Source: Pontiella desulfatans (GTDB taxonomy: Bacteria; Verrucomicrobiota; Kiritimatiellia; Kiritimatiellales; Pontiellaceae). From it: 64,000 nucleotides of DNA. Made by a program: the position numbers and the translations under genes. Shown piece after piece: positions 2,239-54,563 of this stretch. The notes beneath the pieces were generated by a model that saw nothing but the letters and a program-made list of their open reading frames with translations, made no database searches and was not told where the DNA came from. Within the stretch, counting starts at the first letter, position 1. The number at the start of each line of letters is the position of its first letter. The stretch is from positions 1,116,001 through 1,180,000 of the forward strand of contig NZ_CAAHFG010000001.1 in assembly GCF_900890425.1 (NCBI RefSeq). The letters run 5' to 3'.

Positions 2239-3303
2239 CTAGATCATGAAACGGCGGCGGATGAAGAGCATGCCCAGGCCGCTGAAGAGGGCCAGACCGA
2301 CGCTGGCCGGTTCCGGGATCAGGTAGCCTTGGCTGTCGAGGGCGATGCCTTCCGATGAGCCGTTGATCGTGATACCGGCCAGTTGGGTTTCCGACAATCC
2401 ATTGCCATCGATGCCGAACTGAATCGAATCGCCTGCGGTGTAGTTGATGATATCCAGCGTGGTTCCCCAGGCGACGGCTGAGCTGTCATCGAAGGAGAGA
2501 ACACTTGATCCCAGTCCACCTAAATCAAAGGTCACGGTACCGTTGACTTCGAGGGTGTTGAAGTCGCCGCCGAAACCGCCGGTTACCAGTGTGGTTCCGT
2601 CGTTGAAGGCCATGGCTGAAGCACTGTTGACGGCCTGTGCCGCACCCAATTGTAACGTTCCGCCTTCGACGGTCACGGTGCCGTCAATGGCCATCGCTGC
2701 ACCGTAAATCAAGGTGCCGGCGCCTGTCTTTCTGACATCCCGGGTGCCACCAGCCATAGCGGTTCTGATATCAATAACTCCGGCCCCTGTGACTTCCATG
2801 TTCATATCCTGATCCAGTAATACTGAACCGCTCTCGATGATAAGATCACCGGCGCCGGTGGCTGACCATGTCACTTCAGACACAGTGCCTCCGCCGTTGT
2901 CGGCGTGAACGGCGTTGTCCTGCCAGAATTCTCCACCGATATTAAGCCAATAATCGTAAGCGCTGTCTTGTTGGAGGCCGACGCTACTAACCGAGCGAAC
3001 ACGCAGGCTGTTGGCGGCACTGCCGGTCATTTTGACGTTTTTCGGCAGGTTGCTCGCTACCTTGATCTTCTCAACAAGGAAGTTGGCATTCATGTTCGGT
3101 GCACCGCTACCAGTAGAGCTTGAATTGAATTGCATAATGTCGCCCGACCCCGGTTTGACACCCACCCAGTTCCCGTCACGGGACATAAGTCTATTGTTGA
3201 CGCTATCGGTACCCTTCCAGGACCTGGTGGTACCGTAAACGGCCGATTGTACGGCCAGAATCGCCACCAGGGCCAATCCCATCATTCCCATTGTTTTTTT
3301 CAT
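2239..3303 (-). CDS. PEP-CTERM-anchored autotransporter-repeat protein
   Basis: The protein is 354 aa. A signal peptide (MKKTMGMMGLALVAILAVQS) starts it and autotransporter-type beta-strand repeats (residues ~180-320) form the middle. The C-terminus is a textbook PEP-CTERM tail: IPEPAS, a hydrophobic segment, then RRR. PEP-CTERM proteins are processed by exosortase and sent to the cell surface or exopolysaccharide matrix. No catalytic domain is visible. The N-terminal half is clearly paralogous to the 713-aa protein starting at 4448, sharing for example the NWVGV and PNMN stretches. The ribosome-binding site AGGAG precedes the ATG at 3303. A copy of the recurrent promoter element lies 98 nt upstream of the ATG and a strong terminator follows the stop codon, so it is probably monocistronic. 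Confidence 0.9.
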   Translation of the reverse strand: MKKTMGMMGLALVAILAVQSAVYGTTRSWKGTDSVNNRLMSRDGNWVGVKPGSGDIMQFNSSSTGSGAPNMNANFLVEKIKVASNLPKNVKMTGSAANSLRVRSVSSVGLQQDSAYDYWLNIGGEFWQDNAVHADNGGGTVSEVTWSATGAGDLIIESGSVLLDQDMNMEVTGAGVIDIRTAMAGGTRDVRKTGAGTLIYGAAMAIDGTVTVEGGTLQLGAAQAVNSASAMAFNDGTTLVTGGFGGDFNTLEVNGTVTFDLGGLGSSVLSFDDSSAVAWGTTLDIINYTAGDSIQFGIDGNGLSETQLAGITINGSSEGIALDSQGYLIPEPASVGLALFSGLGMLFIRRRFMI

Positions 3304-3401: not shown

Positions 3402-3450
3402 TAACAGGTGGGGGAGGGAGCGTCTTGTAGTATAAAAGCATGCTGGTGTA
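3402..3450 (-). promoter_or_regulatory. Recurrent TACAC/TACAAGAC promoter-like element (copy 2)
   Basis: On the minus strand this copy has TACACCA, GCATGCTTTTATAC, then TACAAGAC ending at 3422, and CTGTTA at 3407-3402 after 14 nt. It points to the PEP-CTERM gene whose ATG is at 3303, leaving a 98-nt leader. Confidence 0.65.
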
Positions 3451-4193: not shown

Positions 4194-4243
4194 TAGCAAT
4201 GTGCAACCCGGCTTGTCTTGTAGAAAAAAAGCGTGTCGGTGTA
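4194..4243 (-). promoter_or_regulatory. Recurrent TACAC/TACAAGAC promoter-like element (copy 3)
   Basis: On the minus strand this copy has TACACCG, ACACGCTTTTTTTC, then TACAAGAC ending at 4215, followed 15 nt later by TTGCTA (4199-4194). It reads towards the EF-hand gene (ATG at 4052). Confidence 0.65.
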
Positions 4244-4295: not shown

Positions 4296-4345
4296 TACAC
4301 CAGCATGCTTTTTTTCTACAAGACGCCAAATTCCCTTCTTTGCTA
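4296..4345 (+). promoter_or_regulatory. Recurrent TACAC/TACAAGAC promoter-like element (copy 4)
   Basis: TACACCA at 4296 is followed by GCATGCTTTTTTTC and TACAAGAC (ending 4324). TTGCTA lies at 4340-4345, 15 nt downstream. The gene starts at 4448. This is one of the cleanest copies. Confidence 0.7.
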
Positions 4346-4447
4346 GATTAACTCAAGCTCAAGCTCTCCAAAGCAGAGACATTGCTGGGATGGGTGTTTG
4401 TTCGTAGTTTCGTAGCAAAACCGAAATTGAACCGGAGGATTAGGAAG

Positions 4448-6589
4448 ATGAAAAAAACAATGCGAATGATAGGGCTGGGCATGCTGGCATGCGTATGTGC
4501 GCAAACGGTGGCATACGGACTCGATCGGCAATGGACGGGCACAGATACGACGAATAACAAACTGATGACCCGGAATCAGAACTGGGTCGGTGTGCGACCG
4601 ATCGCAGGAGATTATATTTCATTCACCTCAGCATCGATTGGATGGAACAAACCGAATATGAACGATGATTTTCTGACGGAGCTTCTCCGGGCCAGAACGT
4701 CGTTGGCTCAGGATATCACCATGGAAGGCGGTGCTTCTAATAATCTGCGCCTTCGCTCGACAAGTGGGCTTGCGATTGAAAACAACAGTGGACAGCTGTT
4801 ATGGATCGATTTTAGCGGGAGTTTGCGGCAGGACAACGATATTTTCAGCACTTCAGTCAATGCTTCCGAGGTAACGTGGCGGACTGCTGGTTCGAATAGT
4901 GTGCTTAAGGTAACTCCCGGCAGCATCACGCTGGAGTGCGATCTTTTGCTGGACGTTGACGGAATCTCATCCATGGAGATCGGGAGCTCTATAAGTGGTT
5001 ACGCTACTGCCAAAGGTTGGGATATCACAAAAATAGGAACCGGCACCCTGACCCTCAGCGGATCGAGTATTTTGACCGGCTATACGACTATTTCCCAAGG
5101 AACGCTTCAGTTGGGGGCAAACCAACCCATTGGCGGAAATTCGGATCTGGTTTTTGCCGATGGCACCACCCTGAAAACAGGTGGCTACGACGGCGATTTC
5201 GATAAAGTGGACGTCAGCGGAACCGTGATAGTCGATTTTGAAAACGTGGGAACCAGCCAGATTTCGTTTAAAGACAGCTCAGCCGTTGCCTGGGGCACTC
5301 CAGCCCTGAACATCACCAACTTTACGGATGGAGTCGATTCTGTTCGCTTCGGTACCGATGCCAACGGTTTGACACCCACCCAGCTGGCGGGCATCACGGT
5401 AAACGGTGTTTCGGGCTATGCCCTCGATAGCGATGGCTATCTTGCGTTGCCTGTCCCGGCAGACGAACAGGAGTGGGTCGGCGGAACGAATACCGATTGG
5501 CACATCGCAGCAAACTGGGCAAGCAACAGCGTGCCGGGTGCGGCCGGCGTCGCCATCTTCGATGCCGCTTTTGCTTCGAGCAATTCTCAGCCCACGGTTA
5601 CATCGAACGCGGTTGTCGATGAGCTGCGGGTGCTCGCTCCCGAACAGGATGTGGAAATCACGGTGGCTTCCAGCGCCACGCTTGGCGTTGCCCAGGCATC
5701 CATTAACATGGCAAACGCTGCAAGCAACCTGACGATCTTCGGCGAAGGCGCATTCGTGCAGTTGCCCGGCACCGAGTCCGATCCGCTTTGGGACGTCGCC
5801 AGCACCAATGGCGGCGATTTGGCCATCGATACGGATTCGTTCGTAATCTCGAACGGCGTGGCCCTGACGATCAATGTGGATGCATTGCGCACGGTGGATA
5901 TCCAGACTAGTGCCGACGTTTCCACGGCCAGCGTCACCAAGACGGGCGAAGGCCTCCTGATCCTCGGCGGTTCCAATGGATGGAGCGGCGACACGACGAT
6001 CAGCGGGGGAACGCTTCAGCTGACAGCGGATAATGCCCTCAGTTCAGATTCGGCGGTTGTTTTCAGCGATGGAACCACACTTGAAGCCGAAGGGGTATCC
6101 GGTTCCTTCTCGACGCTCGAAATCAACGGAAGCGTGACCTTCGATCTGGATGGAGCCGGAACCAATGCCCTTGCGTTCGCCGACAGTTCCGGCGTTGCAT
6201 GGGGCTCGACCCTGGTTATCACCAACTATACCGATGGCGTGGATTCGATCCGCTTCGGCACCAACAGCACGGCACTAACCGAAGCCCAGCTGGCGGACAT
6301 CACCCTCAACGGGGAAGGAAACCTGGTTCTGGATGAAAGCGGCTATCTGGTGGTTGGGCCGGTGCCGGTCGGGGATGTTGCGTTGGGAACCGTTTCCGGC
6401 GTTGGCGTATCCCTTGCGTGGGGCAGCGTGGTTGGCCAGGGTTATGAGGTGCAGTACAAGACCAATCTACTGGATGCGGTTTGGATGTCATACACCAACC
6501 TCGCGGGAACCGGCGGGGAGCTGTCGGTCACCTCCTCCGTCGTGAATGCCGCGGAGTTCTACCGGATTGAATCGGCATTTTCCGAGTAG
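4448..6589 (+). CDS. Secreted autotransporter-repeat protein, 713 aa
   Basis: The start at 4448 gives a signal peptide (MKKTMRMIGLGMLACVCAQT) after GGAGG and AGGAAG. The body contains three rounds of autotransporter-associated beta-strand repeats, each with a KTGEGLLILGGSNGWSG-like unit and an ADSSGVAWG-like unit. Within the chain, EWVGGTNTDWHIAANW (about residue 340) opens a second passenger-like block of the kind that starts other proteins here. The C-terminal ~70 residues form a small beta-sandwich-like domain ending in FYRIESAFSE. There is no PEP-CTERM tail and no beta-barrel autotransporter translocator, so the export route beyond Sec is unknown. The N-terminal third is paralogous to the gene at 2239-3303. 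No catalytic motif is seen. Confidence 0.88.
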   Translation: MKKTMRMIGLGMLACVCAQTVAYGLDRQWTGTDTTNNKLMTRNQNWVGVRPIAGDYISFTSASIGWNKPNMNDDFLTELLRARTSLAQDITMEGGASNNLRLRSTSGLAIENNSGQLLWIDFSGSLRQDNDIFSTSVNASEVTWRTAGSNSVLKVTPGSITLECDLLLDVDGISSMEIGSSISGYATAKGWDITKIGTGTLTLSGSSILTGYTTISQGTLQLGANQPIGGNSDLVFADGTTLKTGGYDGDFDKVDVSGTVIVDFENVGTSQISFKDSSAVAWGTPALNITNFTDGVDSVRFGTDANGLTPTQLAGITVNGVSGYALDSDGYLALPVPADEQEWVGGTNTDWHIAANWASNSVPGAAGVAIFDAAFASSNSQPTVTSNAVVDELRVLAPEQDVEITVASSATLGVAQASINMANAASNLTIFGEGAFVQLPGTESDPLWDVASTNGGDLAIDTDSFVISNGVALTINVDALRTVDIQTSADVSTASVTKTGEGLLILGGSNGWSGDTTISGGTLQLTADNALSSDSAVVFSDGTTLEAEGVSGSFSTLEINGSVTFDLDGAGTNALAFADSSGVAWGSTLVITNYTDGVDSIRFGTNSTALTEAQLADITLNGEGNLVLDESGYLVVGPVPVGDVALGTVSGVGVSLAWGSVVGQGYEVQYKTNLLDAVWMSYTNLAGTGGELSVTSSVVNAAEFYRIESAFSE

Positions 6590-6610: not shown

Positions 6611-6650
6611 ATAAAAGCACGCGGTGATCTACACCAGCGTGCTTTTTTTT
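6611..6650 (+). terminator. Hairpin terminator overlapping the next promoter element
   Basis: AAAAGCACGC pairs with GCGTGCTTTT, and GGTG with CACC inside it, followed by eight T residues. The hairpin follows the stop at 6589 and its 3' arm is the upstream half of promoter copy 5. Termination and initiation signals therefore share the same bases. Confidence 0.7.
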
Positions 6651-6679
6651 TACAAGACAGGCTCTTACCGAGGCTGATA
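6630..6679 (+). promoter_or_regulatory. Recurrent TACAC/TACAAGAC promoter-like element (copy 5)
   Basis: TACACCA at 6630 is followed by GCGTGCTTTTTTTT and TACAAGAC (6651-6658). CTGATA lies at 6674-6679. The downstream gene starts at 6774. Confidence 0.65.
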
Positions 6680-24722: not shown

Positions 24723-24771
24723 TACCATCCGAGCGCATTCACGTCTTGTAGAATAAAAGCATCATGGTGTA
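24723..24771 (-). promoter_or_regulatory. Recurrent TACAC/TACAAGAC promoter-like element (copy 6)
   Basis: On the minus strand this copy has TACACCA, TGATGCTTTTATTC, then TACAAGAC ending at 24743, with ATGGTA at 24728-24723. It reads into the 2535-aa gene (ATG at 24645). Confidence 0.65.
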
Positions 24772-24796: not shown

Positions 24797-24956
24797 GTAG
24801 CTCGCATATCCGATGCGAGTATGCGGTGGAACAGCTCGCGTGCGGGGGACAGCGGATCGGATATCCGCCCCACGGGGTAGCTCGCATATCCGATGCGAGT
24901 TGGCGGAGGAACGGCCCGTGTGCCGGGGACGGCGGATCGGATATCCGCCCCACGGC
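24797..24956. repeat. Two tandem 80-nt REP-like units
   Basis: Units start at 24797 and 24877 and are about 88% identical by eye. Each begins GTAGC, then the hairpin TCGCAT-ATCCG-ATGCGA, a spacer, and a second inverted repeat around GCGGATCGGATATCCGC. A related unit lies at 63919-63987. There is no array of equal repeats with unique spacers, so it is not CRISPR. Confidence 0.7.
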
Positions 24957-24992
24957 GTCTCGTTCCTGCGATTAGGCATTGGCGTGCTTATA

Positions 24993-25041
24993 TACACCAC
25001 AATGCTTTTATTCTACAAGACCCGACAAACCGCTCTTGCTA
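24993..25041 (+). promoter_or_regulatory. Recurrent TACAC/TACAAGAC promoter-like element (copy 7)
   Basis: TACACCA at 24993 is followed by CAATGCTTTTATTC and TACAAGAC (25014-25021). TTGCTA lies at 25036-25041. The gene starts at 25130, an 88-nt leader. Confidence 0.7.
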
Positions 25042-25129: not shown

Positions 25130-26179
25130 ATGAAAAAAATGATGAAAATGTTCGGGCTGGTCTTGGTAGCAGTCACGCTATCCACCATGGTTGCAACAGC
25201 AGCTTCGACAAGTAAATGGCAAGGTGATGTAAGTACAAGCTGGGTGAATGGACAAAACTGGAATGGAGATATGCCGGACGGAGATTTTGTTGCAAAATTC
25301 GATGACGAATTTATATTAGACGCCCATCAGCCGGCTATTGGCACGCAGGCGGATAACGGAGCTGTCCTCGAGCAGATTCGCGTGACTAATCCTGCACAAG
25401 ATGTTACGATTACTGCTGATGACGGAGCGGGTGGTACCGGCGGTGCAATAAACCTTGATAGGCTTGGTGGCACTACTGCATCCTCTAAGCGTTCAATCGA
25501 CATGTCAGCGGCGAGTAAGAACCTGACCATCGTAGGCGGGGGAAAGTTGGTTGAGCGCAACAACGATGCAAACTCACATTACTGGGCTATCACCGGTAGC
25601 GGCGACCTGACCGTTAGCACTGCCAGATTTGTGCTTGAACAAAATCTTAATCTCTATATCGAGACAGACACCGGGAGAACAGTAACCATTAATTCTAATT
25701 CCGAAGAATTAAGTGGCGGCGCATCTGCAGCAGACGTATTTCTTTCTGGTGATGGCCTGCTGGTACTCAACGGAACGGCTGGATGGACAGGCCAGACAAA
25801 GATTGGTGCCGGTAGCACCATCCAACTTGGAGTAAGCCAAGCTCTTAATACCAAATCGAGACTTAATATGGGCGACGGAACATTAAAAACCGGCGGTTAC
25901 GATAACGATTTCGGGGTGCTCGACGTCAACGGCGTCGCGGTCATCGACCTGCAGAGTTTCGATCACATCCAAAACTGGGTTCGCGTCTGCAAGGGGCTGG
26001 AGAAAGCCGGAACCGATTTCGACTATGGCGCGCGCCTCACCGAGATTTGTCTGCTAGGAAATGTAGCGAAACGCGTGAATGGTTTGATACGGTGGGACGC
26101 GGAGAACATGCGGATCACGAATAATGAGAAGGCGAACCAATATATCAACACCGGGTATCGCGAAGGGTGGAGCTTATAA
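25130..26179 (+). CDS. In-frame chimera: autotransporter-repeat N-terminus fused to a Gfo/Idh/MocA C-terminus
   Basis: The protein is 349 aa. Residues 1-~275 are a normal repeat protein: signal peptide, KWQGDVSTSWVNGQNWNGD, and repeat units ending ...NDFGVLDVNGVAVIDLQ. Then, without a frame break, the sequence becomes the tail of a Gfo/Idh/MocA-type oxidoreductase: HIQNWVRVCKGLEKAGTDF, TEICLLGNVAKRVNGLIRWD, ending YREGWSL. This matches the end of the protein at 53206-54561 (KRVNGLIRWDAENM, QGWSL). The junction is near 25955. Base composition also changes there, from AT-rich to GC-rich. The oxidoreductase part lacks its NAD-binding and catalytic regions and cannot be an enzyme. The stop overlaps the start of the next sulfatase (TAATG). 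It is probably the product of a deletion or recombination; an assembly join should be excluded. Confidence 0.75.
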   Translation: MKKMMKMFGLVLVAVTLSTMVATAASTSKWQGDVSTSWVNGQNWNGDMPDGDFVAKFDDEFILDAHQPAIGTQADNGAVLEQIRVTNPAQDVTITADDGAGGTGGAINLDRLGGTTASSKRSIDMSAASKNLTIVGGGKLVERNNDANSHYWAITGSGDLTVSTARFVLEQNLNLYIETDTGRTVTINSNSEELSGGASAADVFLSGDGLLVLNGTAGWTGQTKIGAGSTIQLGVSQALNTKSRLNMGDGTLKTGGYDNDFGVLDVNGVAVIDLQSFDHIQNWVRVCKGLEKAGTDFDYGARLTEICLLGNVAKRVNGLIRWDAENMRITNNEKANQYINTGYREGWSL

Positions 26180-27639
26180 TGACGAATGGCTTAACAAATA
26201 ATTTCCGAGCGCTGACGGCCTGCTTCGTTCTGGCGGTCTCGCTAACCGGAATGGCGGGGGCGCGGAAACCCAATGTGTTGTTTTTCATGTCGGACGACCT
26301 GAATACCGCACTGAGCGGCTTTGGACATCCGCAGTGCCAAACGCCGATGCTCGACCGGCTGGCCGCCGATGGAGTGCGCTTTGAAAACATGCATTGCCAA
26401 TATCCGGTCTGCGGCGCTTCACGCTCGTCCATCATGTCGGGGCTTTATCCCTACACCAACGGAACGCTGGGGAACGCGGGGACGCTGCGGGGCAACATGC
26501 CGGACGTCGTCACGATGTCGCAGCTGTTCCGCCAGAACGGCTACCATGTCGGCCGCGTCAGCAAGATCTACCACATGGGCATCCCCGGGGAAATCATCGC
26601 CGGAACCGCGGAGCGCGACGATCCGCACTCCTGGGACGAAGTGGTCAACATTAAGGCGCCGGAGCAAAACGCGCCGGGCATAAAAACCAACTGGTCGCCC
26701 AAGGACAAAGGCTCGCAGGCGTTTGTCGGGGTTGAGGCCGAAGGCGACGACCTGGTGCATGCCGATGGCATGGCCGCCGACCACGCGATCGATTTCCTGA
26801 AGCGCAACCAAGACCAGCCCTTCTTTCTGGCCTGCGGCTTCGTTCGCCCGCACGTGCCGCTGGTTGCGCCCGCCAAATATTTCGACCGCTACGACCGGGC
26901 GGCGATGATTGCCCCGGTGGTTCCCGAGGGCGACCTGGAGGATGTGCCGCAGATCATCCGCGGCTATAAAAGAAACAGCAGCACCTACGACGTGACACCG
27001 GAACTGCACAAAGGACTGCTCGAAGCGTACTACGCGAGCGTCTCCTACATGGATGCGCAGGTCGGCCGCGTGCTGGATTGCCTCGAAGAGCTGGGGTTGA
27101 AGGAAAACACCATCGTGGTCTTTACCAGCGACCATGGCTATCTGTTGGGCCACCATAACAAGTTCCAAAAACAGCATCTTTTCGAAGAGTCCACCCGCGT
27201 TCCATTCATTGTCAGCGTTCCGTGGATGAAAGACCGCCATGGGGAAGCCTCCCGGCATATCACCGAACTGATCGATCTCTATCCCTCCCTGGCCGAGCTG
27301 GCCGGGCTGGAGGCGCCCGATGGCCTGCACGGCGAAAGCCTGCTTCCGCTGCTCAACGATCCCGCCTCCAAGGATTGGAAAAAGGAGGTCGCCTTCACCA
27401 TCAGCCGCAGCGGCGGGGAATCCATTCGCACCCATGACTGGCGATTCAATCAGTGGAACTACGGGCGGGGCGGCATGGAGTTGTACGACCTCAAGAACGA
27501 CCCCGGCGAATTCACCAACTTGGCCGAGAATCCCGAATATGCGGAGCGGTTGGAGCAACTTCGGAAACAGCTCGACGCCAAACGGCTTGAAGCGGGATAC
27601 ATCGAAAAAAACAGCAAGAAAAAGCGAAAGAAGAAATGA
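26179..27639 (+). CDS. Secreted sulfatase, iduronate-2-sulfatase-like (CxAxR type)
   Basis: The protein is 486 aa. The start at 26179 overlaps the stop of the preceding chimera (TAATG), with GGAG upstream. The signal peptide ends at GMAGA, followed by KPNVLFFMSDD, whose Asp pair binds the active-site calcium. The formylglycine motif is C-G-A-S-R at residues 78-82; Ala replaces the usual Pro, which the family consensus allows. Its sequence resembles iduronate-2-sulfatase-type (S1_7-like) enzymes (MSDDLNTALSGFGHPQC, FVRPHVPLVAP). The C-terminus is a Lys tail (KKKRKKK). Sulfatases of this kind remove sulfate esters from glycans in the periplasm after formylglycine maturation. The next sulfatase overlaps its stop codon. 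Confidence 0.9.
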   Translation: MTNGLTNNFRALTACFVLAVSLTGMAGARKPNVLFFMSDDLNTALSGFGHPQCQTPMLDRLAADGVRFENMHCQYPVCGASRSSIMSGLYPYTNGTLGNAGTLRGNMPDVVTMSQLFRQNGYHVGRVSKIYHMGIPGEIIAGTAERDDPHSWDEVVNIKAPEQNAPGIKTNWSPKDKGSQAFVGVEAEGDDLVHADGMAADHAIDFLKRNQDQPFFLACGFVRPHVPLVAPAKYFDRYDRAAMIAPVVPEGDLEDVPQIIRGYKRNSSTYDVTPELHKGLLEAYYASVSYMDAQVGRVLDCLEELGLKENTIVVFTSDHGYLLGHHNKFQKQHLFEESTRVPFIVSVPWMKDRHGEASRHITELIDLYPSLAELAGLEAPDGLHGESLLPLLNDPASKDWKKEVAFTISRSGGESIRTHDWRFNQWNYGRGGMELYDLKNDPGEFTNLAENPEYAERLEQLRKQLDAKRLEAGYIEKNSKKKRKKK

Positions 27640-29024
27640 AAAAGCTATGGATGATGATTCTTTGCGCGGGCGTCGCGTTGGCCGCTTTAGCCGCGCCGCG
27701 CGCGCCCAACGTGGTGATGTTGCTCGCGGACGATCTGGGCTACGGCGATCTCGGCTGCTATGGTGGGCCCGTCAAAACCCCGGCGTTGGACGGCCTCGCG
27801 GCGGGGGGCGTTCGTTTTACCGATTTCTATTCCGGTTGCGCGGTCTGCTCGCCTTCGCGGGCGACGCTGCTGACGGGGCGGAACCATATCCGCGCGGGGG
27901 TTTATAATTGGATCAACGACGAGGTGCATCGCACGCACCTGCTGGAGCGCGAGATCACGCTCGCGGAAGTTCTCAAGAAGGAGGGGTATGAAACCGCGCA
28001 CGTCGGGAAATGGCACCTCGGCCTTCCGTACGGGACGTTCGATAAACCGACGCCCGCCGAGCATGGTTTCGACTACTGGTTCGCGACCGACAACAACGCT
28101 CTGCCCACGCATCACAACCCGACGAACTTCTATCGCAACGGCAAGGCGCTCGGAAAAATGGAGGGCTATTCCTGCCAGCTCGTCGTCGACGAGGCCATCC
28201 AATGGTTGGAAGAGCATCGCGATCCTGCCGCGCCGTTCTTCCTCAACGTCTGGTTCCACGAACCGCACATGAAGGTTGCCGCGCCCGCGGGAATCGTTGA
28301 GGAATACAGCCGGTTCAAGCCCGCGAAAAAGAACGCGCGTCTGGATCTGGCGACCTATTCCGCGACGATCGACAACACCGACCGGGCGATCGCCCGGTTG
28401 CTCGCCAAGTTGCGGGAGGTCGCGCCTCCGGAACAGACCCTGATTATTTATGGCTCGGACAACGGGTGCTACATGCCCGAGCGAACCGGCGGACTGCGTA
28501 GCAAGAAGGGGCAAAACTGGGAGGGCGGAATCCGCGTGCCCGGCATCTTCTGCTGGCCGGGAATCATTCAGGCGGGCGCCGTCGAATCCGCGCCCGCGGG
28601 TTTGACGGACGTGCTGCCCACGGTGTGTGGATTGTTGGGGCTTGAAAAACCGGACGTCCATCTCGACGGCTCCGATCTGACGGGGTTGCTGACGGGCAAG
28701 CCGAAAGAGTTCAATCGCCACCAACCATTGTTCTGGCATCTTCAGAAAGCCCGTCCGATCGTCGCGATCCGCGACGGCGACTATTCTCTACTCGCCGAAC
28801 CCGACTATGAGCTGTCGCGAAACAACACCTTGCAGGAGGCGTGGATCCCGGCCATCAAAACGGGGGGCTACACCAACTATCAGCTCTTCAACCTGAAAGA
28901 CGATCCGGCGCAGGAAAACGATCTGTCGACCGCTCAGCCTGAACGGCTGGAGCGGATGAAAAAGAAACTACTCGAAATCAACGCCAGCGTCATGGCCGAC
29001 GGTCCCGACTGGCATTTGGAGTGA
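27636..29024 (+). CDS. Secreted sulfatase (arylsulfatase type)
   Basis: The protein is 462 aa. The ATG at 27636 overlaps the upstream stop (ATGA), implying coupled translation. The signal peptide ends at LAALAA. The metal site is LLADDLGYGD and the formylglycine motif C-S-P-S-R is at residues 71-75, followed by ATLLTGR. VGKWHLG and a later SDNG motif complete the active site. It is a full-length S1 sulfatase; substrate unknown. It ends the two-sulfatase unit downstream of the chimeric gene. Confidence 0.92.
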   Translation: MKKLWMMILCAGVALAALAAPRAPNVVMLLADDLGYGDLGCYGGPVKTPALDGLAAGGVRFTDFYSGCAVCSPSRATLLTGRNHIRAGVYNWINDEVHRTHLLEREITLAEVLKKEGYETAHVGKWHLGLPYGTFDKPTPAEHGFDYWFATDNNALPTHHNPTNFYRNGKALGKMEGYSCQLVVDEAIQWLEEHRDPAAPFFLNVWFHEPHMKVAAPAGIVEEYSRFKPAKKNARLDLATYSATIDNTDRAIARLLAKLREVAPPEQTLIIYGSDNGCYMPERTGGLRSKKGQNWEGGIRVPGIFCWPGIIQAGAVESAPAGLTDVLPTVCGLLGLEKPDVHLDGSDLTGLLTGKPKEFNRHQPLFWHLQKARPIVAIRDGDYSLLAEPDYELSRNNTLQEAWIPAIKTGGYTNYQLFNLKDDPAQENDLSTAQPERLERMKKKLLEINASVMADGPDWHLE

Positions 29025-29136: not shown

Positions 29137-29187
29137 TAAATGGTGGTTTGACGCGCTTAAAGCCGGCTGTAGGGAATGGAGACGAGA

Positions 29188-30666
29188 ATGAAGTGGTTAT
29201 TCATTATGTTGTTCATGGTCTTGGGACTGAGTACGCGGGCTGATGCCAAACGCCCGAATATTCTTTTCGCGATCGCGGATGATATGTCACACGCGAGCTG
29301 CTATGGCTACGCCTTTCTCGACACGCCCAACTTTGACCGCATTGCAAAAGAGGGTATCCGCTTCGACCGCGCCTATACGCCCAGCAGCAAATGCGCACCG
29401 TCTCGCTCCGTGATCATTACCGGGCGCAATCCCTGGCAACTCGAAGACGCCGCAAATCACCAACCCTATTTCCCGAAAAAGTTCAAAAGCGTCGTCGAGG
29501 CGCTGGGCGAGCATGGTTACTTTACTGGTTTCACGGGAAAGGGCTGGGGACCGGGCGATGATGGAGGACGAGAGCTGACCGGTACCGCGTTTCAGGAATC
29601 GCAAAATAAAAACCGACCAACCAATCAGATTAATCCCACCGATTATGCGGGAAACTTCGAACTCTTCCTGAAGGCCAAACCCGCCGATGAACCCTTTTTC
29701 TTCTGGTATGGATGCAAGGAACCGCACCGGAAGTATGCATTCAAGTCCGGGGTCAAAAGCGGAAAAAAACTCGCGGAACTGGATTTCCTGCCCACGTTCT
29801 GGGGAACGGACAACGCGGTGAAACACGATATTCTCGACTACGCCGTCGAAGTGGAACACTACGACATGCATCTGGGGCGAATTCTCCAAATGCTGGAAGC
29901 GGCCGGTGAGTTGGAGAATACGCTCATTATCGCGACCTCCGACAACGGCATGCCGTTTCCGCGGTTCAAGGGACATCCCTATGAGCATTCCACCCATCTC
30001 CCATTCGTCGTCCGCTGGCCGGGCCACATCAAAAACCCCGGGCGCGTCAGCAGTGACTTTATCAGTTTTACTGACCTCGCTCCGACCTTTCTGAAAGCCG
30101 CAGGTATTTCGCGGGCTGACTCAGGGCTTCAGCCGATCCAGGGGCGGAGCCTGTTTGATGTGTTTGCGGACGCGCCGAAAGGCCGCGGTTCCGTGCTGAC
30201 CGGGCGCGAGCGCAATGATATCGGACGTCCCCACGACCAGAGTTATCCCGTACGCAGTCTCCACGAAGGAACCTTGGTCTACATGCGTAATTTCAAACCC
30301 GACCGCTGGCCTTGCGGCAATCCCGAAACCGGCTACCGCGATACCGACAGCAGTCCGACGAAAACCTATACGCTCTCCCAAGAGGCGGGGTCGCTTGAAT
30401 ACGACAAGTCATACGGAAAACGCCCCGGCGAGGAACTCTATGATTTGGAAAAGGATCCGGAATGTCTCGAAAACCTCGCGCTTTCGCCGGAATACGATGC
30501 GCTCAAGAATCGGATGCGCGCCAAGCTTTTCGCGGAGTTGAAAAAGCAGGGCGATCCCCGCGTGCTCGGCCAAGGCGACGTGTTCGACGCGTATGAACAC
30601 TCGAAGCGCCCCGGTTACTATGAAAAGGAAATGGCCAAGAAGAAGGGCCGGGGGAATAAGAAATGA
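29188..30666 (+). CDS. Secreted sulfatase
   Basis: The protein is 492 aa. The start at 29188 is preferred over an in-frame ATG at 29176 because GGAG lies at a proper distance and [20 protein letters not shown] is a good signal peptide. [14 protein letters not shown] is the metal-binding segment. The formylglycine motif C-A-P-S-R lies at residues 69-73, followed by SVIITGR. The C-terminal end is Lys-rich. The GH29-type lipoprotein gene follows closely, so the two probably form an operon. Composition is slightly more AT-rich than the sulfatase pair before it. Confidence 0.9.
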
Positions 30667-30701
30667 AACTAATTCACATGGATCCAGAAAGGAAACCCGG
30701 A

Positions 30702-32363
30702 ATGAAAAAATTCATTACAATGACTATGGCCGCGCTGCTCACCGGCTGTGCAACAAACGATTTTTCAAACCCGAAGAATCAACCGGGCAATGGCGGGTAT
30801 TTGACGTATGGATCGAATATGCTGACCGATCCCTCTTTTGAAAATGTTTCGAATCCAGAGGTTGGGAAGTTTGTTGACGCCAGTATGGCCCGCAGCGGAT
30901 CCAGTGCTCTTCGGATGTCCCTTTTAAACGAGCAAATCCTGAAAAAAGAGAACCGTGTCGCCACGCTGGATCCCGTCGCGGTGGAACCGGAGCAGCTCTA
31001 CAAACTCGAAGTCTGGGTTCATATTCCTGAGATCATTACGACCCCGGACAGGAAAAGGTCGGCCTTCTTGAAGCCGGACAAGATGTCCATGTTCGGGGCT
31101 TTCCTTAGAGGGGATCTCCTCGACGTAAATGGAACCCGGTGCGGCGAGGCGCTGGTGGGAAAAAACCAGTTGGATCTGGCTCACGCCACCTACGGTTCCT
31201 GGATCCAGCTCAGGGGCTTGGTGAAAACAAACAAGGACACAAAATCCCTCCAACTCTCTTGCGGCTTGGAAGAGGATGAGGGAACGGTGTTTTTTGACGA
31301 TCTATCGTTGCGAAAAATCGACAACCCCAATGATTTCCTCCGCATGTTCGAGTCGCCGGAAGCACGCGATGAGCGGATCGGGTGGTGGAAGGAATCGGGC
31401 TACGGAATGTTTCCTATCTTTGGGATTTATTCAATCCACGGCGGGGTTTGGAAGGGCAGGTATGAACCTAACAAATATGCCGAATGGATGACGTTCCGGC
31501 AACAAGTCCCGCATGGCGAGCTCAAGGCTTTGGCCGAAGTATTCCGTCCTGACGCCTTTGACGCGGATGAGTATGTCCGCCTGGCCAAAGAGGCTGGCAT
31601 GGGGCACATCGTGATTACCGCGAAGTATCACGATGGTTTCGCCATGTGGGATACCCAGTGCGACAAGTTCAACATCAAGGATTGCAGCGGTTTTGACCGG
31701 GATATTTTAATGGAGTTGAAAGACGCTTGTCGAAAGGCGGGGCTCCATTACGGTTTTTATTACTCCCAATCTCAGGAATGGTATACCCCCGGCGGATTCT
31801 CCAGGGATCATTATGCGTTCGGTGACTACCCGGAAGATATCAAGGGTAAGGCGCGCCTGTATGAAATGGACATCGCTCCGTTTGATCTGCCCCGTAATTA
31901 TTTAGAGAATAAAAGCAAACCACAGTTGCTTGAACTGATGGAAAAGTACGACCCGGAAGTGATCTGGTTTGATGTGCCCACTGAAATCAACATCATTGAT
32001 GCGTTGGAGCTTTTGGCGATTATTCGGAAGAACAATCCCCATTGCCTGGCGGGATCTCGGTTGCATCAGTCGGAAGAGCTTCGGGATTTTCTCACCATGG
32101 GCGATTATAAAATTCCCGAGGGAGAGATTGCCGAGACCTATTGGGAGAGCCTGCCCGGCATGCAGAAACATACCTACAGCTACGACCAGTTTCAGCCGTT
32201 CCGCTCCCCCGAAGAGATTTTCAAGGAGCTGAAAGAAGTCCGGCGGAAAGGCGGGAACTTCCTGCTGGCCATCGGAGGCCCTAGAGGCGACGGCAGCATC
32301 CCGGAGATTAATTTCGAGATTTTGCGAAAGGTAAAGGCCTTGGCCGATAAAGAAGGGCTTTAA
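30702..32363 (+). CDS. GH29-type alpha-L-fucosidase-like lipoprotein
   Basis: The protein is 553 aa. The start at 30702 gives MKKFITMTMAALLTGC, a good lipoprotein signal, with AAAGGAA upstream; a longer frame from 30663 is less likely. Residues ~35-225 look like a CBM4/9-type beta-sandwich (NMLTDPSFENVSNPEVGKF ... TVFFDDLSLRKI). The rest matches GH29: GIYSIHGGVWKGRYEPNKYA, HIVITAKYHDGFAMWDT, and EVIWFDVP, where the Asp is at the position of the family's nucleophile. GH29 enzymes release alpha-L-fucose with retention. An acid/base residue could not be assigned by eye. The lipid anchor suggests it faces the periplasm or cell surface, next to the sulfatases. Confidence 0.85.
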   Translation: MKKFITMTMAALLTGCATNDFSNPKNQPGNGGYLTYGSNMLTDPSFENVSNPEVGKFVDASMARSGSSALRMSLLNEQILKKENRVATLDPVAVEPEQLYKLEVWVHIPEIITTPDRKRSAFLKPDKMSMFGAFLRGDLLDVNGTRCGEALVGKNQLDLAHATYGSWIQLRGLVKTNKDTKSLQLSCGLEEDEGTVFFDDLSLRKIDNPNDFLRMFESPEARDERIGWWKESGYGMFPIFGIYSIHGGVWKGRYEPNKYAEWMTFRQQVPHGELKALAEVFRPDAFDADEYVRLAKEAGMGHIVITAKYHDGFAMWDTQCDKFNIKDCSGFDRDILMELKDACRKAGLHYGFYYSQSQEWYTPGGFSRDHYAFGDYPEDIKGKARLYEMDIAPFDLPRNYLENKSKPQLLELMEKYDPEVIWFDVPTEINIIDALELLAIIRKNNPHCLAGSRLHQSEELRDFLTMGDYKIPEGEIAETYWESLPGMQKHTYSYDQFQPFRSPEEIFKELKEVRRKGGNFLLAIGGPRGDGSIPEINFEILRKVKALADKEGL

Positions 32364-32563: not shown

Positions 32564-34504
32564 ATCGGGTAAGAGGGAGTGACTAGCTCCCTCTCCCCAC
32601 ACCACCAAGCATGCGGGTCCGCACTTGGCGGTTCGCAAGGCACCGTCCGTTTCCGTTCCGCCCTGTGCTAGCGGCGAACCGAGTCCGGGTAGTGCATCCG
32701 AGACCATTGTTCCTTCAGACTGACCAGTCCTTGCTCCTTGAGCCACGCGTTGCCCAAGCCCATGTTCGTTGCCAGCGTGCGCGATAGTTTCCAATAGCCT
32801 TTGCGGCTACTGACCACCATGTTGATCTGCCGCTCGTCAATGCCGAGCTTGCGCAGTTGTCGCCGACGCATTTTCGGGCGTTTCCACATCTTCCAATAGC
32901 ACAGCCGTAATCTCCGGCGTATCCATTGGTCGAGCGGTGGAATGGGTTTGTAGTATTCGCTGATGCCAAAGTAGCCCATCCAGCCGCGCATGTATTCGCG
33001 CAGCTTCCTCAAACGGTATTGCATGGAGACGCCCCAGCTTCTACCGGTGAGTTCCTTGATGCGCCGTTTGAATTCCTTTTCGGACTTTTGGCTCCAGCGG
33101 ATCTTTCCGCGTATGATGTGAAACCCGAGGAAGGTGCATTCGTCGAGGCGTGCGACCTTGCTCTTGGTCTCATTGACCTCCAGCAAAAGTTCGCGCTCCA
33201 GAAATTTCCGAATACTGGAAAACACCCGTTCGCCCGCCTGCTTGGTCTTCACCATGATGATGAAGTCGTCGGCATAGCGCACGAACTTGAGTCCCCTTCT
33301 TTCGAGTTCCTTATCCAGCTCATCGAGCAGGATATTGGCGAGCAACGGCGAGAGCGGGCCGCCCTGCGGGACTCCTCTGCCCGGGTGTATGGACAGCCCA
33401 TCCGCGATTATCTCCGCCTTTAGATATTTCCTGATCAGTTTCAGCACTCGTTCGTCCTTCACCCGCTTCGCCACACACCGCATCAGCGGGTCGTGGTTCA
33501 CGGTGTCGAAGAACTTAGAGAGGTCGGCATCGACCGCGATCGGATAATATGAGCGGAACAGCTTCTTTACCTGCCGCACCGCGTCGTGCGCGGAGCGTCC
33601 GGGTCTAAAGCCATAACTCGATTCCGAAAAGTGCGGATCGAACAGCGGCGTTAAAACCTGTGCGATGGCCTGCTGGATCACACGATCCAGCACGGTCGGA
33701 ATCCCTAGCGGACGTTTACTCCCGTCCGGTTTCGGTATCTCGACGCGGCGCACCGCCGCAGGCTTGTACCTGCCGCTGGCCAACGATGAACGGATACCCT
33801 CCCAGTGCTGGCGGATAAACCCGAACGCGGCATCGATGGACAACCCGTCCACGCCCGCCGCGCCCTTGTTTGCCTTAACCCGCTTCCATGCCTTGCGCAT
33901 GTTCTCCAAGTCGAGCACCCGTTCCAATAGTTCATCATGCGGGGTCGCTTGGTCCGCCGCGCAGGGTGCAACTTCTCCGCCATACGGCTTCATCGAAGGC
34001 TCCTTTCGCGACGGGGGCGTCCACGCTCCTTGCGTTCAGCCCTTCCCGTCAGGTCAACGGTACTATGGCCTCTGCTGACTCCTTCGGGAGTAACGACGAC
34101 ATTGCTGCCGCCGCCGCTTTCCGTTGCCGGAACGCATATCCCGCAGGCCTCCCCGGATAAGAACACAGACTTCCGCTGCACAACCGCCGCATTTACCGTA
34201 GAGGTATTGCCCCGGACTTCGGCATGCTGGGCAACCTCATCCACCTCCTCAGCCTTATATGCGATTTCTGTTCGTCGGCTCACAGTTTTGATCTCCATCT
34301 TCCTCCCCACGATCCCTCGCGAGACCGCAGTTGATTTCATCTAGCGCTTCGGCTACCGTCGTTCCCAATGAAAGGAACAGCGGACAGCCGGGCAACGCGC
34401 AGGGGACTCGAACCCCATTAGTTTGTGTTCATGCCAGGCGTACCCAGCCCATGCACGGCACGGCGTACCGCCGCCCGTGATGGCGATGTTCTACGGAGTA
34501 ACAC
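32564..34504 (-). mobile_element. Group II intron with its own reverse transcriptase
   Basis: On the minus strand the 3' part is recognisable. A domain V-like hairpin (about 32638-32598, GAACCGCC ... GGTGGTGTGG) is followed by a domain VI-like stem (GAGGGAG / CTCCCTC) and the end ...TTACCCGAT near 32564. The reverse transcriptase lies in domain IV. The 5' end is not certain; GTGTTAC at 34504 is the best candidate near the next gene, making the intron about 1.9 kb. It is inserted antisense to the surrounding sulfatase genes, between the sulfatase stub and an intact sulfatase. Confidence 0.7.
32668..33993 (-). CDS. ltrA: Group II intron-encoded reverse transcriptase/maturase
   Basis: The protein is 441 aa. 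Reverse transcriptase motifs appear in order: KRPLGIPTVLDRVIQQA, SSYGFRPGRSAHDAV, AVDADLSKFFDTVNHD, GVPQGGPLSPLLANI, and the catalytic YADD at residues 240-243. The maturase (X) domain fills the C-terminal part. There is no HNH endonuclease domain; the protein ends soon after the maturase domain. Intron retrohoming would therefore rely on an endonuclease-independent route, as known for En-minus lineages. No frameshift or stop is seen, so it may be active. Its role is splicing and mobility of its own intron. Confidence 0.95.
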   Translation of the reverse strand: MKPYGGEVAPCAADQATPHDELLERVLDLENMRKAWKRVKANKGAAGVDGLSIDAAFGFIRQHWEGIRSSLASGRYKPAAVRRVEIPKPDGSKRPLGIPTVLDRVIQQAIAQVLTPLFDPHFSESSYGFRPGRSAHDAVRQVKKLFRSYYPIAVDADLSKFFDTVNHDPLMRCVAKRVKDERVLKLIRKYLKAEIIADGLSIHPGRGVPQGGPLSPLLANILLDELDKELERRGLKFVRYADDFIIMVKTKQAGERVFSSIRKFLERELLLEVNETKSKVARLDECTFLGFHIIRGKIRWSQKSEKEFKRRIKELTGRSWGVSMQYRLRKLREYMRGWMGYFGISEYYKPIPPLDQWIRRRLRLCYWKMWKRPKMRRRQLRKLGIDERQINMVVSSRKGYWKLSRTLATNMGLGNAWLKEQGLVSLKEQWSRMHYPDSVRR

Positions 34505-39645: not shown

Positions 39646-41124
39646 ATGAAGAATACCACTCGCATGGGCTTAGGCGCTCTAGTTGTTGCATTCTGTGGAG
39701 TATTATTCGCGTCGGGAGCGTCCGCGGAAAAGCCCAACGTGCTGTTTATCATCTCCGACGACCTTACGGCGTCGGCACTTTCGTGTTATGAAAACAAGGT
39801 TTGCCAAACTCCGAACATCGATCGGATTGCGGAGCGCGGGGTGCGCTTCGACAACATGCACTGCATGAATCCGGTGTGTGGACCTTCCCGCGTGTCGATC
39901 ATGACGGGGCGCTATCCCGGAGAGCTGGACTGCTATAGCAACAAAGACTCGAAAAGCGTGTTCGATGACCCCTCACTGGGCAGTATGACCGAACCGTTCC
40001 GGCAGCAAGGCTGGTTTGCCGCACGGGTCAGCAAGGTCTACCATATGGGTATTCCCGGCGACATCACGAGAGGCACCGCCGGGGCGGATCATGCCGCGTC
40101 GTGGGACGTGGCGGTCAATATCAAGGATCTGGAACAAAAGCAGCCGGGGAAATACGAGCTGCTCTCCCCGAGGATGAAGAGCTCCGGCATGGGCTTCAAG
40201 GTGGTCGAGACCGAAGCGGGCGCATTGGAGCTCGCGGATGGCAAGGCGGTAACCCAAGCCATCGATTTGATCAGAGAGCACAAAGATCAGCCCTTTTTCC
40301 TCGCGGTGGGCCTTGTGCGTCCGCATGTCCCGCTTGTAGCGCCACCGGAATTTTTCGAACCCTATCCACTGGAAAGCATCGAGCTTCTGAAGGTGCCGGA
40401 CAACGATCTCGACGATATTCCCGAAGCGCATCACTTTGATGTCAACGAAGTCAAATACGGCATGTCCGAAGAGCAGCAACGCAAGGCCATTCGCGGCTAC
40501 TACGCCTCCGTTTCCTACATGGATGCCCAGGTCGGCCGCCTGTTGGACGAGCTGGATAAACTGGGCTTGGACGACAACACCATCGTCGTTTTCACCTCCG
40601 ACCACGGTTACCTCCTTGGCGAACACCACATGTGGGAAAAACAGACGTTGTTCGAAAACACCACCCGTGTTCCGTTCATCGTTTCCGTTCCTTGGCTCGC
40701 GGACGCCCAGGGTCAAGGCTGCGACCGTATCGCCGAGCACATCGATCTGTTTCCGACCCTGACCGATCTCTGCGGGATTGAAACCCCTGCCGACCTGCCG
40801 GGACAATCCTTGAAGACCCTCCTGAAAGATCCCCGGCAGGAGGGCTGGACTAAAAACGCGGCCTACACGCTGAATAGTTGGGGCGGTGAATCCCTGCGCG
40901 GTGAAGACTTCCGTCTCACGGTCTGGCACGACGGTAAAAGCGGCATCGAGCTCTACGATCTCAAAAAGGATCCCGGTGAATTCACCAACCACGCGCTCAA
41001 TCCCGAATATGCCACCCAACTCGAAACCATGCGCGGCTTGCTTGATGAACGTCGCCGCGCGGCGAAAACCGATGTCAACGCCTACCTGAAAAAGGCCCGC
41101 CCCGCCTTCGCGAAAGAGAAATAA
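39646..41124 (+). CDS. Secreted sulfatase, iduronate-2-sulfatase-like
   Basis: The protein is 492 aa. The signal peptide ends ASGASA. The metal-binding segment is KPNVLFIISDDLTASALSCY and the formylglycine motif C-G-P-S-R is at residues 78-82. FLAVGLVRPHVPLVAPPEFF and FTSDHGYLLGEHHMWEKQ are typical of the iduronate-2-sulfatase-like group. It is a close paralog of the sulfatase at 46896 over its whole length (shared VNIKDLEQ and QPGKYE stretches) and more distantly of the one at 26179. Both close paralogs sit directly behind a copy of the same promoter element, which suggests that gene and promoter were duplicated together. Confidence 0.92.
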   Translation: MKNTTRMGLGALVVAFCGVLFASGASAEKPNVLFIISDDLTASALSCYENKVCQTPNIDRIAERGVRFDNMHCMNPVCGPSRVSIMTGRYPGELDCYSNKDSKSVFDDPSLGSMTEPFRQQGWFAARVSKVYHMGIPGDITRGTAGADHAASWDVAVNIKDLEQKQPGKYELLSPRMKSSGMGFKVVETEAGALELADGKAVTQAIDLIREHKDQPFFLAVGLVRPHVPLVAPPEFFEPYPLESIELLKVPDNDLDDIPEAHHFDVNEVKYGMSEEQQRKAIRGYYASVSYMDAQVGRLLDELDKLGLDDNTIVVFTSDHGYLLGEHHMWEKQTLFENTTRVPFIVSVPWLADAQGQGCDRIAEHIDLFPTLTDLCGIETPADLPGQSLKTLLKDPRQEGWTKNAAYTLNSWGGESLRGEDFRLTVWHDGKSGIELYDLKKDPGEFTNHALNPEYATQLETMRGLLDERRRAAKTDVNAYLKKARPAFAKEK

Positions 41125-41279
41125 CGGAATAACCAGAAACGGATCAGCGAGAAGCAGTGATGAACATCCAGACTGCAGGAAAACAATCTGTCGTCTAAGT
41201 AAGACGGTGCGTTAATTTATACTTCGCCGATATTCATAACCGTGGAAAAGTAGAATGGCATGAACGATGGAGATTTTGT

Positions 41280-46895: not shown

Positions 46896-48395
46896 ATGAA
46901 AAGAAACATTCGCTATGCAGCAGCCATGGTTTTTGTTGCGCTATCCGTATGCGGGGCAGATGTCGATAAACCCAATATTCTGTTCATTATTTCCGACGAC
47001 CTGACTGCGGCGCTGGGTTGCTATGGACATCCTCAATGCAAAACCCCGAACATTGACCGGATCGCGGCGCGCGGCGTGCGCTTCGACAACGTGTATTGCA
47101 TGAACCCGGTCTGCGGCCCCTCCCGCGCGTCGCTCATGACAGGACGCTACCCGGGGGATCTGGACTGCTACAGCAACCGCGATTCAAAAACACTGTTTCA
47201 GGACCCGTCCGTCACCAGCATGACCGAGCCGTTCCGTCGGGAGGGCTGGTTTGTCGCACGGGTCAGCAAGGTTTATCACATGGGCATTCCCGGCGACATC
47301 GCCAGGGGCGGAGCCGGAGCGGATCATGCCGCATCGTGGGATGTGGCGGTCAATATCAAGGATCTTGAACAAAACCAGCCGGGGAAATACGAGCACCTTA
47401 CCCCGAAGATGAAGAGTTCCGGCATGGCGTTCAAGGTGGTCGAGACCGAAGCGGGTGCGTTGGAACTGGCCGATGGCAAGGCGGCCACCCAGGCCATTGG
47501 GCTACTCAGGGAGCATGGGGACAAGCCGTTTTTTCTGGCGGTGGGCTTTGTGCGGCCGCACGTCCCGTTGGTCGCGCCGCCGGAATTTTTCGAACCCTAC
47601 CTGCTGGACGGCATCGAGCTGCAACAGGTTCCGGAAAACGATCTCGCGGATATCCCCGAAGCGCACCAGTTCGATGTCAACGAAGTCAAGTATGGCATGT
47701 CCGAAGAGCAGCAGCTCAAGGCGCTTCGCGCCTACTATGCCTCCATTTCCTACATGGATGCCCAGGTCGGGCGCCTGTTGGACGAGCTGGAGCGGTTGGG
47801 TTTGCACGACGACACCATCGTCGTTTTCACCTCCGACCACGGCTACCACCTGGGCGAGCACCACATGTGGCAAAAGCAGTCCCTGTTCGAAAATTCCTCC
47901 CGCGTTCCCTTCATCGTTTCTGTTCCATGGCTGGCGGATGCGCACGGAAAGGGCTGCGACCGCATTGCGGAGCATATCGACTTGTTTCCGACCCTCACCG
48001 ATCTTTGCGGCATTGAGGCACCTGCCGACTTGCCGGGAGAGTCGATGCAGAACCTGCTCAAGGATCCGGAGCGGGGTTCGTGGAATAAAACCGCGGCATA
48101 CACCCTCAACAGCAAGGGCGGGGAAACCGTGCGCAACGATCGCTTCCGCCTAATCGTCTGGCACGACGGAAAGAGCGGTACCGAACTCTACAACCATGAA
48201 AAGGATCCCGGCGAATTCACCAACCTTGCCGACAATCCGGAATATGCCGCCAAGCTAAAAGAAATGCGGGCGTTGCTCGATCAACGGCGGCGCGTGGCGA
48301 AGACCGATGTGAAAGCCTATCTGGAGAAGGTTCCTCCGGCTTTCGACAAACAGAAATTCCTGAAGAATCAACAGCGAAAAAAGAAACAACCCTGA
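46896..48395 (+). CDS. Secreted sulfatase, iduronate-2-sulfatase-like
   Basis: The protein is 499 aa. The start at 46896 follows AAGGGAG at good distance and gives a signal peptide (MKRNIRYAAAMVFVALSVCG). The metal segment is KPNILFIISDDLTAALGCYG and the formylglycine motif C-G-P-S-R is at residues 73-77. It is a close paralog of the sulfatase at 39646. The C-terminus is a short Lys-rich tail (RKKKQP). It is the first gene of a plus-strand array running to 63905 in which every gap is under 60 nt. Confidence 0.92.
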   Translation: MKRNIRYAAAMVFVALSVCGADVDKPNILFIISDDLTAALGCYGHPQCKTPNIDRIAARGVRFDNVYCMNPVCGPSRASLMTGRYPGDLDCYSNRDSKTLFQDPSVTSMTEPFRREGWFVARVSKVYHMGIPGDIARGGAGADHAASWDVAVNIKDLEQNQPGKYEHLTPKMKSSGMAFKVVETEAGALELADGKAATQAIGLLREHGDKPFFLAVGFVRPHVPLVAPPEFFEPYLLDGIELQQVPENDLADIPEAHQFDVNEVKYGMSEEQQLKALRAYYASISYMDAQVGRLLDELERLGLHDDTIVVFTSDHGYHLGEHHMWQKQSLFENSSRVPFIVSVPWLADAHGKGCDRIAEHIDLFPTLTDLCGIEAPADLPGESMQNLLKDPERGSWNKTAAYTLNSKGGETVRNDRFRLIVWHDGKSGTELYNHEKDPGEFTNLADNPEYAAKLKEMRALLDQRRRVAKTDVKAYLEKVPPAFDKQKFLKNQQRKKKQP

Positions 48396-53174: not shown

Positions 53175-53205
53175 TCGGCAGGTTGGTAAAAAGAGGGGTG
53201 GTTTC

Positions 53206-54561: not shown

Positions 54562-54563
54562 CG

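Follow-up and report, generated by a model that had tools for sequence, protein, structure and literature searches.

A naturally occurring, probably double-jointed fusion between a repeat-protein gene and the end of a Gfo/Idh/MocA dehydrogenase gene in Pontiella desulfatans

Termination-reinitiation in E. coli needs no more of the upstream gene than its final 15 nt, even when these are placed in frame behind an unrelated ORF (PMC10666635). The locus that we describe here, from the sulfatase-rich marine bacterium Pontiella desulfatans, resembles the hyfH–hyfI and menD–menH pairs of that study in that an unrelated ORF, carried on the 3′ end of a gene X, would drive a gene Y across a short overlap, and the 1-nt overlap found here is a typical spacing of termination-reinitiation pairs. 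The difference is that the E. coli fusions were engineered reporters built on native X–Y pairs, whereas the P. desulfatans fusion arose naturally and its gene Y has apparently been replaced. Similarly, in the wrinkly spreaders of Pseudomonas fluorescens, two in-frame deletion fusions raised transcription 23- and 219-fold (PMC4395868). There, as we propose for P. desulfatans, a deletion fused an upstream ORF in frame with part of a downstream gene and placed that part under a foreign promoter; however, the part captured in P. fluorescens is an active domain, whereas the part captured here is the end of a gene, without enzymatic function, and the putative beneficiary is the next gene along. The P. 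desulfatans locus is a clean record of a known class of event, and a natural counterpart of the engineered termination-reinitiation fusions.

The window analyzed is a stretch of 64,000 nt (contig 1, 1116001–1180000) from a genome of 8.66 Mb in 6 contigs, all of which were included in our whole-genome searches. Within it lies a single open frame of 349 codons (25130–26179, + strand, as are the features below unless stated otherwise) whose relatives fall into two non-overlapping sets. Residues 1–275 consist of a probable Sec signal peptide (MKKMMKMFGLVLVAVTLSTMVATAA, 25130–25204), recognized by inspection and by the similar N-termini of paralogues, and one truncated module of a local repeat-protein family (25205–25954). 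In particular, these 275 residues match local repeat-protein paralogues only, at 30–41% identity (E values down to 1e-37). Residues 278–349, by contrast with the first 275, correspond to the C-terminal end of an unrelated, sugar-oxidizing Gfo/Idh/MocA dehydrogenase (72 codons plus the stop codon, 25961–26179), 76% identical to the product of an intact paralogue in the same window (53203–54561; hereafter gfo53203). When the whole genome was searched in six frames, residues 274–349 matched intact gfo with 72% amino acid identity (E = 1.5e-36), and at the DNA level 25987–26189 matched 54369–54571 with 78% identity (blastn, E = 5.8e-40).

The two similarities abut. Matches to the repeat paralogues stop at residues 275–281, where the gfo match starts; the last trace of repeat similarity is at about residue 275 (IDLQ in the chimera, IDFQ in paralogues), and Gfo similarity begins at D278 (DHIQNW in the chimera, DHVLNW in the intact gene), which places the join within 25952–25961 and pairs residue ~275 of the repeat protein with codon ~381 of gfo. 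An earlier note on this DNA had read the ORF as a chimera that runs in frame from a repeat protein into a Gfo/Idh/MocA protein, switching near 25955 to a tail of ~75 residues homologous to the gene at 53206–54561, with a change in base composition. Our searches bear out each of these points, with 72–76 codons matching the gfo C-terminus and gfo53203 as the tail's nearest relative, and show the compositional change to be real but modest (GC3 of 0.48 in the repeat part and 0.667 in the tail). Because the chimera tail, the tail of intact gfo (0.653) and the repeat paralogues all have a higher GC3, the anomaly lies in the repeat part, which is unusually rich in AT. (Note that the paralogous repeat genes, at 0.64–0.76, lie well above the value for 25130–25954; the repeat part of the chimera may have a separate origin.)

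The repeat-protein matches lie in a gene cluster within about 30 kb, and each paralogue has one or two modules. Beyond the point that corresponds to the join, the paralogues run on for ~80 more residues and then enter a PEP-CTERM-like tail (as in 2239–3303) or further domains. The chimera has a homologous module and an MKK-type signal peptide, as expected of a member of this family, and lacks both the last ~80 residues of the module and the C-terminal parts of its paralogues. We found the repeat family in none of 387 phylum-sampled genomes other than its own, no relative joining a repeat module to a gfo tail in the relatives' genomes searched, and no fusion intermediate in any relative, the last because the family is known only from the P. 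desulfatans genome. AlphaFold predicts beta strands across the whole module and, with Gfo sequences in the alignment, helices in the tail (block pLDDT 76–85) behind a low-confidence linker (residues 256–277). A first model gave low confidence in the tail because its alignment held no tail relatives; that low confidence was not counted as evidence. A fold search with the first model gave no significant match to a solved structure, and many of its weak hits were beta-helical proteins. The family resembles autotransporter-type beta-strand repeat proteins (TIGR02601/PATR) in that one paralogue (4382–6589) scores above the TIGR02601 cut-off and the chimera module is predicted to be all-beta; it differs in that neither model matches the chimera itself, which has a single module and lacks the C-terminal portion of its paralogues.

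The known enzymes closest to the tail and to intact gfo are the BT_2158-type glycoside 3-dehydrogenases (NF058561; PDB 8tdf). Intact gfo aligns with this family along most of its sequence (452 bits, under the family's 750-bit cut-off) and matches 8tdf with E = 3.3e-95. The chimera tail matches the C-terminal part of the family, at 29.5 bits, likewise below the cut-off. For the C-terminal alpha/beta domain of these enzymes (PF19051), the chimera covers only profile positions 203–253 of 254 and scores 17.8 bits against a cut-off of 23.3, as befits a fragment, and the NAD-binding Rossmann profile of Gfo/Idh/MocA enzymes (PF01408) goes unmatched. Lacking both the Rossmann domain and the catalytic core, the chimera cannot be a dehydrogenase, and it serves as a caution that a profile hit at the C-terminal end of this ORF does not signify a dehydrogenase.

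The tail nevertheless bears the marks of past purifying selection. Over the 72 codons, the differences between tail and intact gfo number 11 at first, 7 at second and 37 at third codon positions (chi-square p = 5e-7), with NG86 estimates of 0.15 for dN and 1.81 for dS and a dN/dS of about 0.08; with dS near saturation and so few codons, these values bound the age of the fusion only roughly. Conservation across 90% or more of 25 relatives marks out 17 positions, of which the tail keeps 16. A tree pairs it with gfo53203 (support 96/91) on equal branches of 0.16 and 0.16, and polarizing the changes by relatives assigns 9 to the tail branch and 6 to the intact-gene branch. Its evolution has been no quicker than that of the intact gene. 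Given a synonymous divergence of about 1.8, the tail was constrained for nearly all its history, presumably within a working enzyme. In simulations of neutral decay, ~15 substitutions hit one of the 16 conserved residues in 94% of runs; if the tail is now unconstrained, the fusion is therefore late, so that by this estimate either the fusion happened recently or constraint on the tail persists.

A dS of about 1.8 rules against the tail being a direct recent copy of gfo53203. A search for a full-length parental gene, which the earlier note had proposed, yielded no gfo gene closer to the tail than gfo53203 in the organism's own genome, in 29 genomes of the family, in the 387 phylum-sampled genomes or in 346 genomes of the class. 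No fragment of matching identity that could represent the missing 5′ part of gfo or a near-identical second copy of its neighbor, uroD, was found in the organism's own genome, and tblastn in phage records gave no match. In another genome, a 1361-codon frame around a gfo gene that might have been a second fusion proved to be a chance open frame. P. sulfatireligans carries a bare Gfo C-terminal fragment (locus L224, 2845–3096) in a 102-codon stop-to-stop frame; this is not a fusion and represents an unfused remnant, a separate case of a surviving tail.

What followed the tail in its original setting is suggested by the intact locus, where gfo ends in TAACG and is followed by a URO-D-family gene, uroD (54564–55574; PF01208, E = 1.2e-46), that begins ATGAATGGTCTC (MNGL). 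A uroD gene comes next, overlapping or a few nucleotides away, in 5/5 genomes with the best-scoring gfo relatives, and a URO-D-family gene adjoins gfo in 9 of 25 related loci. At the chimera, the homology to gfo–uroD runs ~10 nt beyond the stop codon, and the blastn match stops at 26189, within the opening codons of the downstream sulfatase (MTNGL). The bases after the chimera stop, TAATGACGAATGGCTT, align without gaps and in fixed register with TAACGATGAATGGTCT, with 9 of 13 identical (26180–26193), and the NGL of the sulfatase lies in the same register as the NGL of uroD. Of the window's 13-mers, 0.08% match as well, a share that rises to 0.24% when an ATG in the corresponding place is required. 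The DNA similarity of the sulfatase to its paralogues in the window begins only at 26261–26266. We infer that the start region of the sulfatase was probably taken from a gfo–uroD boundary, at a second junction in this zone; with a signal of 13 nt and 9 matches, the likeness of sulfatase codons 1–5 to uroD could be fortuitous. The earlier note had also seen that the stop/start overlap after the chimera resembles the junction after intact gfo, and had concluded that the downstream neighbors of the 3′ part probably arrived together with it. The resemblance is real and amounts to homology continuing past the stop codon, consistent with a fragment that brought along a stop codon, a Shine-Dalgarno sequence and the uroD start region. 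The conclusion about the neighbors is not supported for the sulfatase: uroD follows the best gfo relatives, the inspected relatives of the sulfatase lack an upstream gfo of the tail's clade, and homology that runs into the uroD start and ends inside the sulfatase makes the latter unlikely to be the tail's original neighbor.

Taken together, these observations lead us to consider it somewhat probable that a second, now lost, gfo–uroD pair and a repeat-protein gene were fused by deletion; that a second join set the opening few codons of uroD against the secretion-signal region of a sulfatase gene, leaving between the two joins a ~230-bp piece of the gfo–uroD boundary; and that the arrangement had consequences for the operon downstream. 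The product would be a repeat protein that is truncated and secreted and ends in a non-enzymatic Gfo tail. Such a history requires two in-frame deletions, or one deletion and an older rearrangement.

A history with a single junction, in keeping with the conclusion of the earlier note, would be cheaper, one event being enough: the lost gfo would already have stood directly before the sulfatase, in a block kept or acquired whole, and the repeat gene would have joined it through one deletion or insertion. The best relatives of the sulfatase, at 75–80%, come from other Verrucomicrobiota and from Planctomycetota rather than from Pontiella, which would fit horizontal transfer of a block. Among 80 sulfatase relatives fetched, 60 loci were inspected using the whole gfo; a same-strand gfo-like gene lies upstream of the sulfatase relative at only two of these (L074, at a distance of 144 nt, and L124), with L137 a third case. 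However, these gfo-like genes are only 26–40% identical to gfo53203, whereas the tail pairs with a uroD-linked gfo. The sulfatase relatives have signal peptides of their own at the N-terminus, most of them MK-type, and no upstream gene of the chimera type. In P. sulfatireligans (NZ_CAAHFH010000001), the relative of the sulfatase (L129/L215) adjoins a relative of the third sulfatase of the cluster and other sulfatases, with neither a gfo nor a repeat gene nearby. The match between the bases after the chimera stop and the uroD start, with the rarity given above, also argues against this simpler history, which we regard as unlikely though still worth weighing against the two-join account.

The open frame and the undecayed tail, with all but one of its conserved residues and a confidently modeled helical fold behind a flexible linker, might instead suggest that the chimera is a selected secreted protein in which the Gfo tail, as a small helical element, caps the beta-strand module or serves as its binding appendage. 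We think this improbable. In Gfo enzymes the segment belongs to a larger alpha/beta domain, with no known stand-alone role; the module's last ~80 residues and the C-terminal parts seen in paralogues are missing; the combination of module and tail occurs in no other genome searched; and a recent fusion explains the conservation of the tail equally well. Least probable of all, in our judgment a very small chance, is an assembly artefact that merged two similar loci, to which none of the observations points. A homologous gfo tail does lie 28 kb away in the window and could mislead an assembler, but at 78% DNA identity the tail is not a collapsed or swapped copy of it, the genome offers no alternative source of the tail, and the probable source assembly combined long and short reads (the P. 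desulfatans F1 genome is a hybrid Illumina and PacBio assembly; PMC6388578).

Under the two-join history, the upstream element of the repeat family would now stand ahead of a sulfatase–sulfatase–sulfatase–fucosidase cluster. This element is a 27-bp motif, TACACCANNATGCTTTTNTTCTACAAG, usually followed by AC, that occurs as an exact match at 24993–25019, ending 110 bp 5′ of the chimera ATG; the motif also precedes repeat-gene paralogues, as would be looked for in promoter capture. With up to 3 mismatches allowed, the genome has 11 sites, all within 90 kb (contig 1, 1118148–1208254), and a reversed control gave 0 sites; across 28 relatives, only two genomes have the motif, at one site each and with three mismatches apiece. 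Sites in the window lie on the plus strand (24993–25019, 4296–4322 and 6630–6656) and on the minus strand (24745–24771, 4217–4243, 3424–3450 and 2148–2174). The genomic sites are mostly directed at a following gene of the island, these being repeat proteins, a gfo, glycoside hydrolases and sulfatases. A sigma-70 scan found no sigma-70-type promoter above chance near the chimera. The motif is probably a locus-specific promoter or operator of the island, and it likely marks a local regulon of sulfatases, glycoside hydrolases and repeat proteins, which offers a testable regulon for one polysaccharide-degradation island. (Between two of the motif sites, at 24797–24958, is an 82-bp intergenic element in two tandem copies of 89% identity, parts of which recur on several contigs in the manner of an interspersed repeat family.)

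The genes that would be co-transcribed from the motif, as an operon, are closely packed. The TAATG at 26177–26181 is a 1-nt overlap, one of the two overlaps (−4 or −1 nt) looked for in coupled pairs, between the chimera stop and the sulfatase (26179–27639; PF00884, E = 9.6e-46). Two sulfatase-like ORFs similar to other sulfatases follow, at 27636–29024, with a 4-nt overlap with the preceding gene, and at 29176–30666; an alpha-L-fucosidase-family gene (30663–32363; PF01120, E = 4.7e-55) then overlaps its predecessor by 4 nt. A Shine-Dalgarno-like GGAG (26169–26172) stands 6 nt before the sulfatase ATG; it sits inside the codons for a conserved C-terminal W-S and is present in gfo53203 as well. 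The borrowed end of gfo probably supplies a ribosome restart site for the sulfatase, in which case ribosomes finishing the chimera would restart by way of the borrowed GGAG and TAATG. A broader and more doubtful idea, to which we give little weight, is that gene ends may act as reusable "restart cassettes" when they hold the stop codon and Shine-Dalgarno sequence as well as the start region of the following gene; the ~230-bp piece, an operon-internal boundary now lodged between unrelated genes, would then initiate translation of a foreign sulfatase, with the fused upstream ORF feeding it ribosomes.

P. desulfatans F1 has an 8.6-Mb genome with 521 sulfatases (PMC7356697, PMC6388578). In a genome with probably several hundred sulfatases, the chimera locus offers a readable record of how a sulfatase cluster may be rewired, in this case by joining gene ends and upstream motifs across families with frame and ribosome restart preserved. 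A group II intron (32668–34326, − strand), with a maturase ORF (RVT_1, GIIM) and matches to Rfam group-II-D1D4 at 34039–34116 and 34162–34326, separates the fucosidase gene from the next sulfatase. Further along, the sulfatase genes at 39727–41135 and 46965–48370 form a pair within the window with 79% DNA identity, a duplication younger than most.
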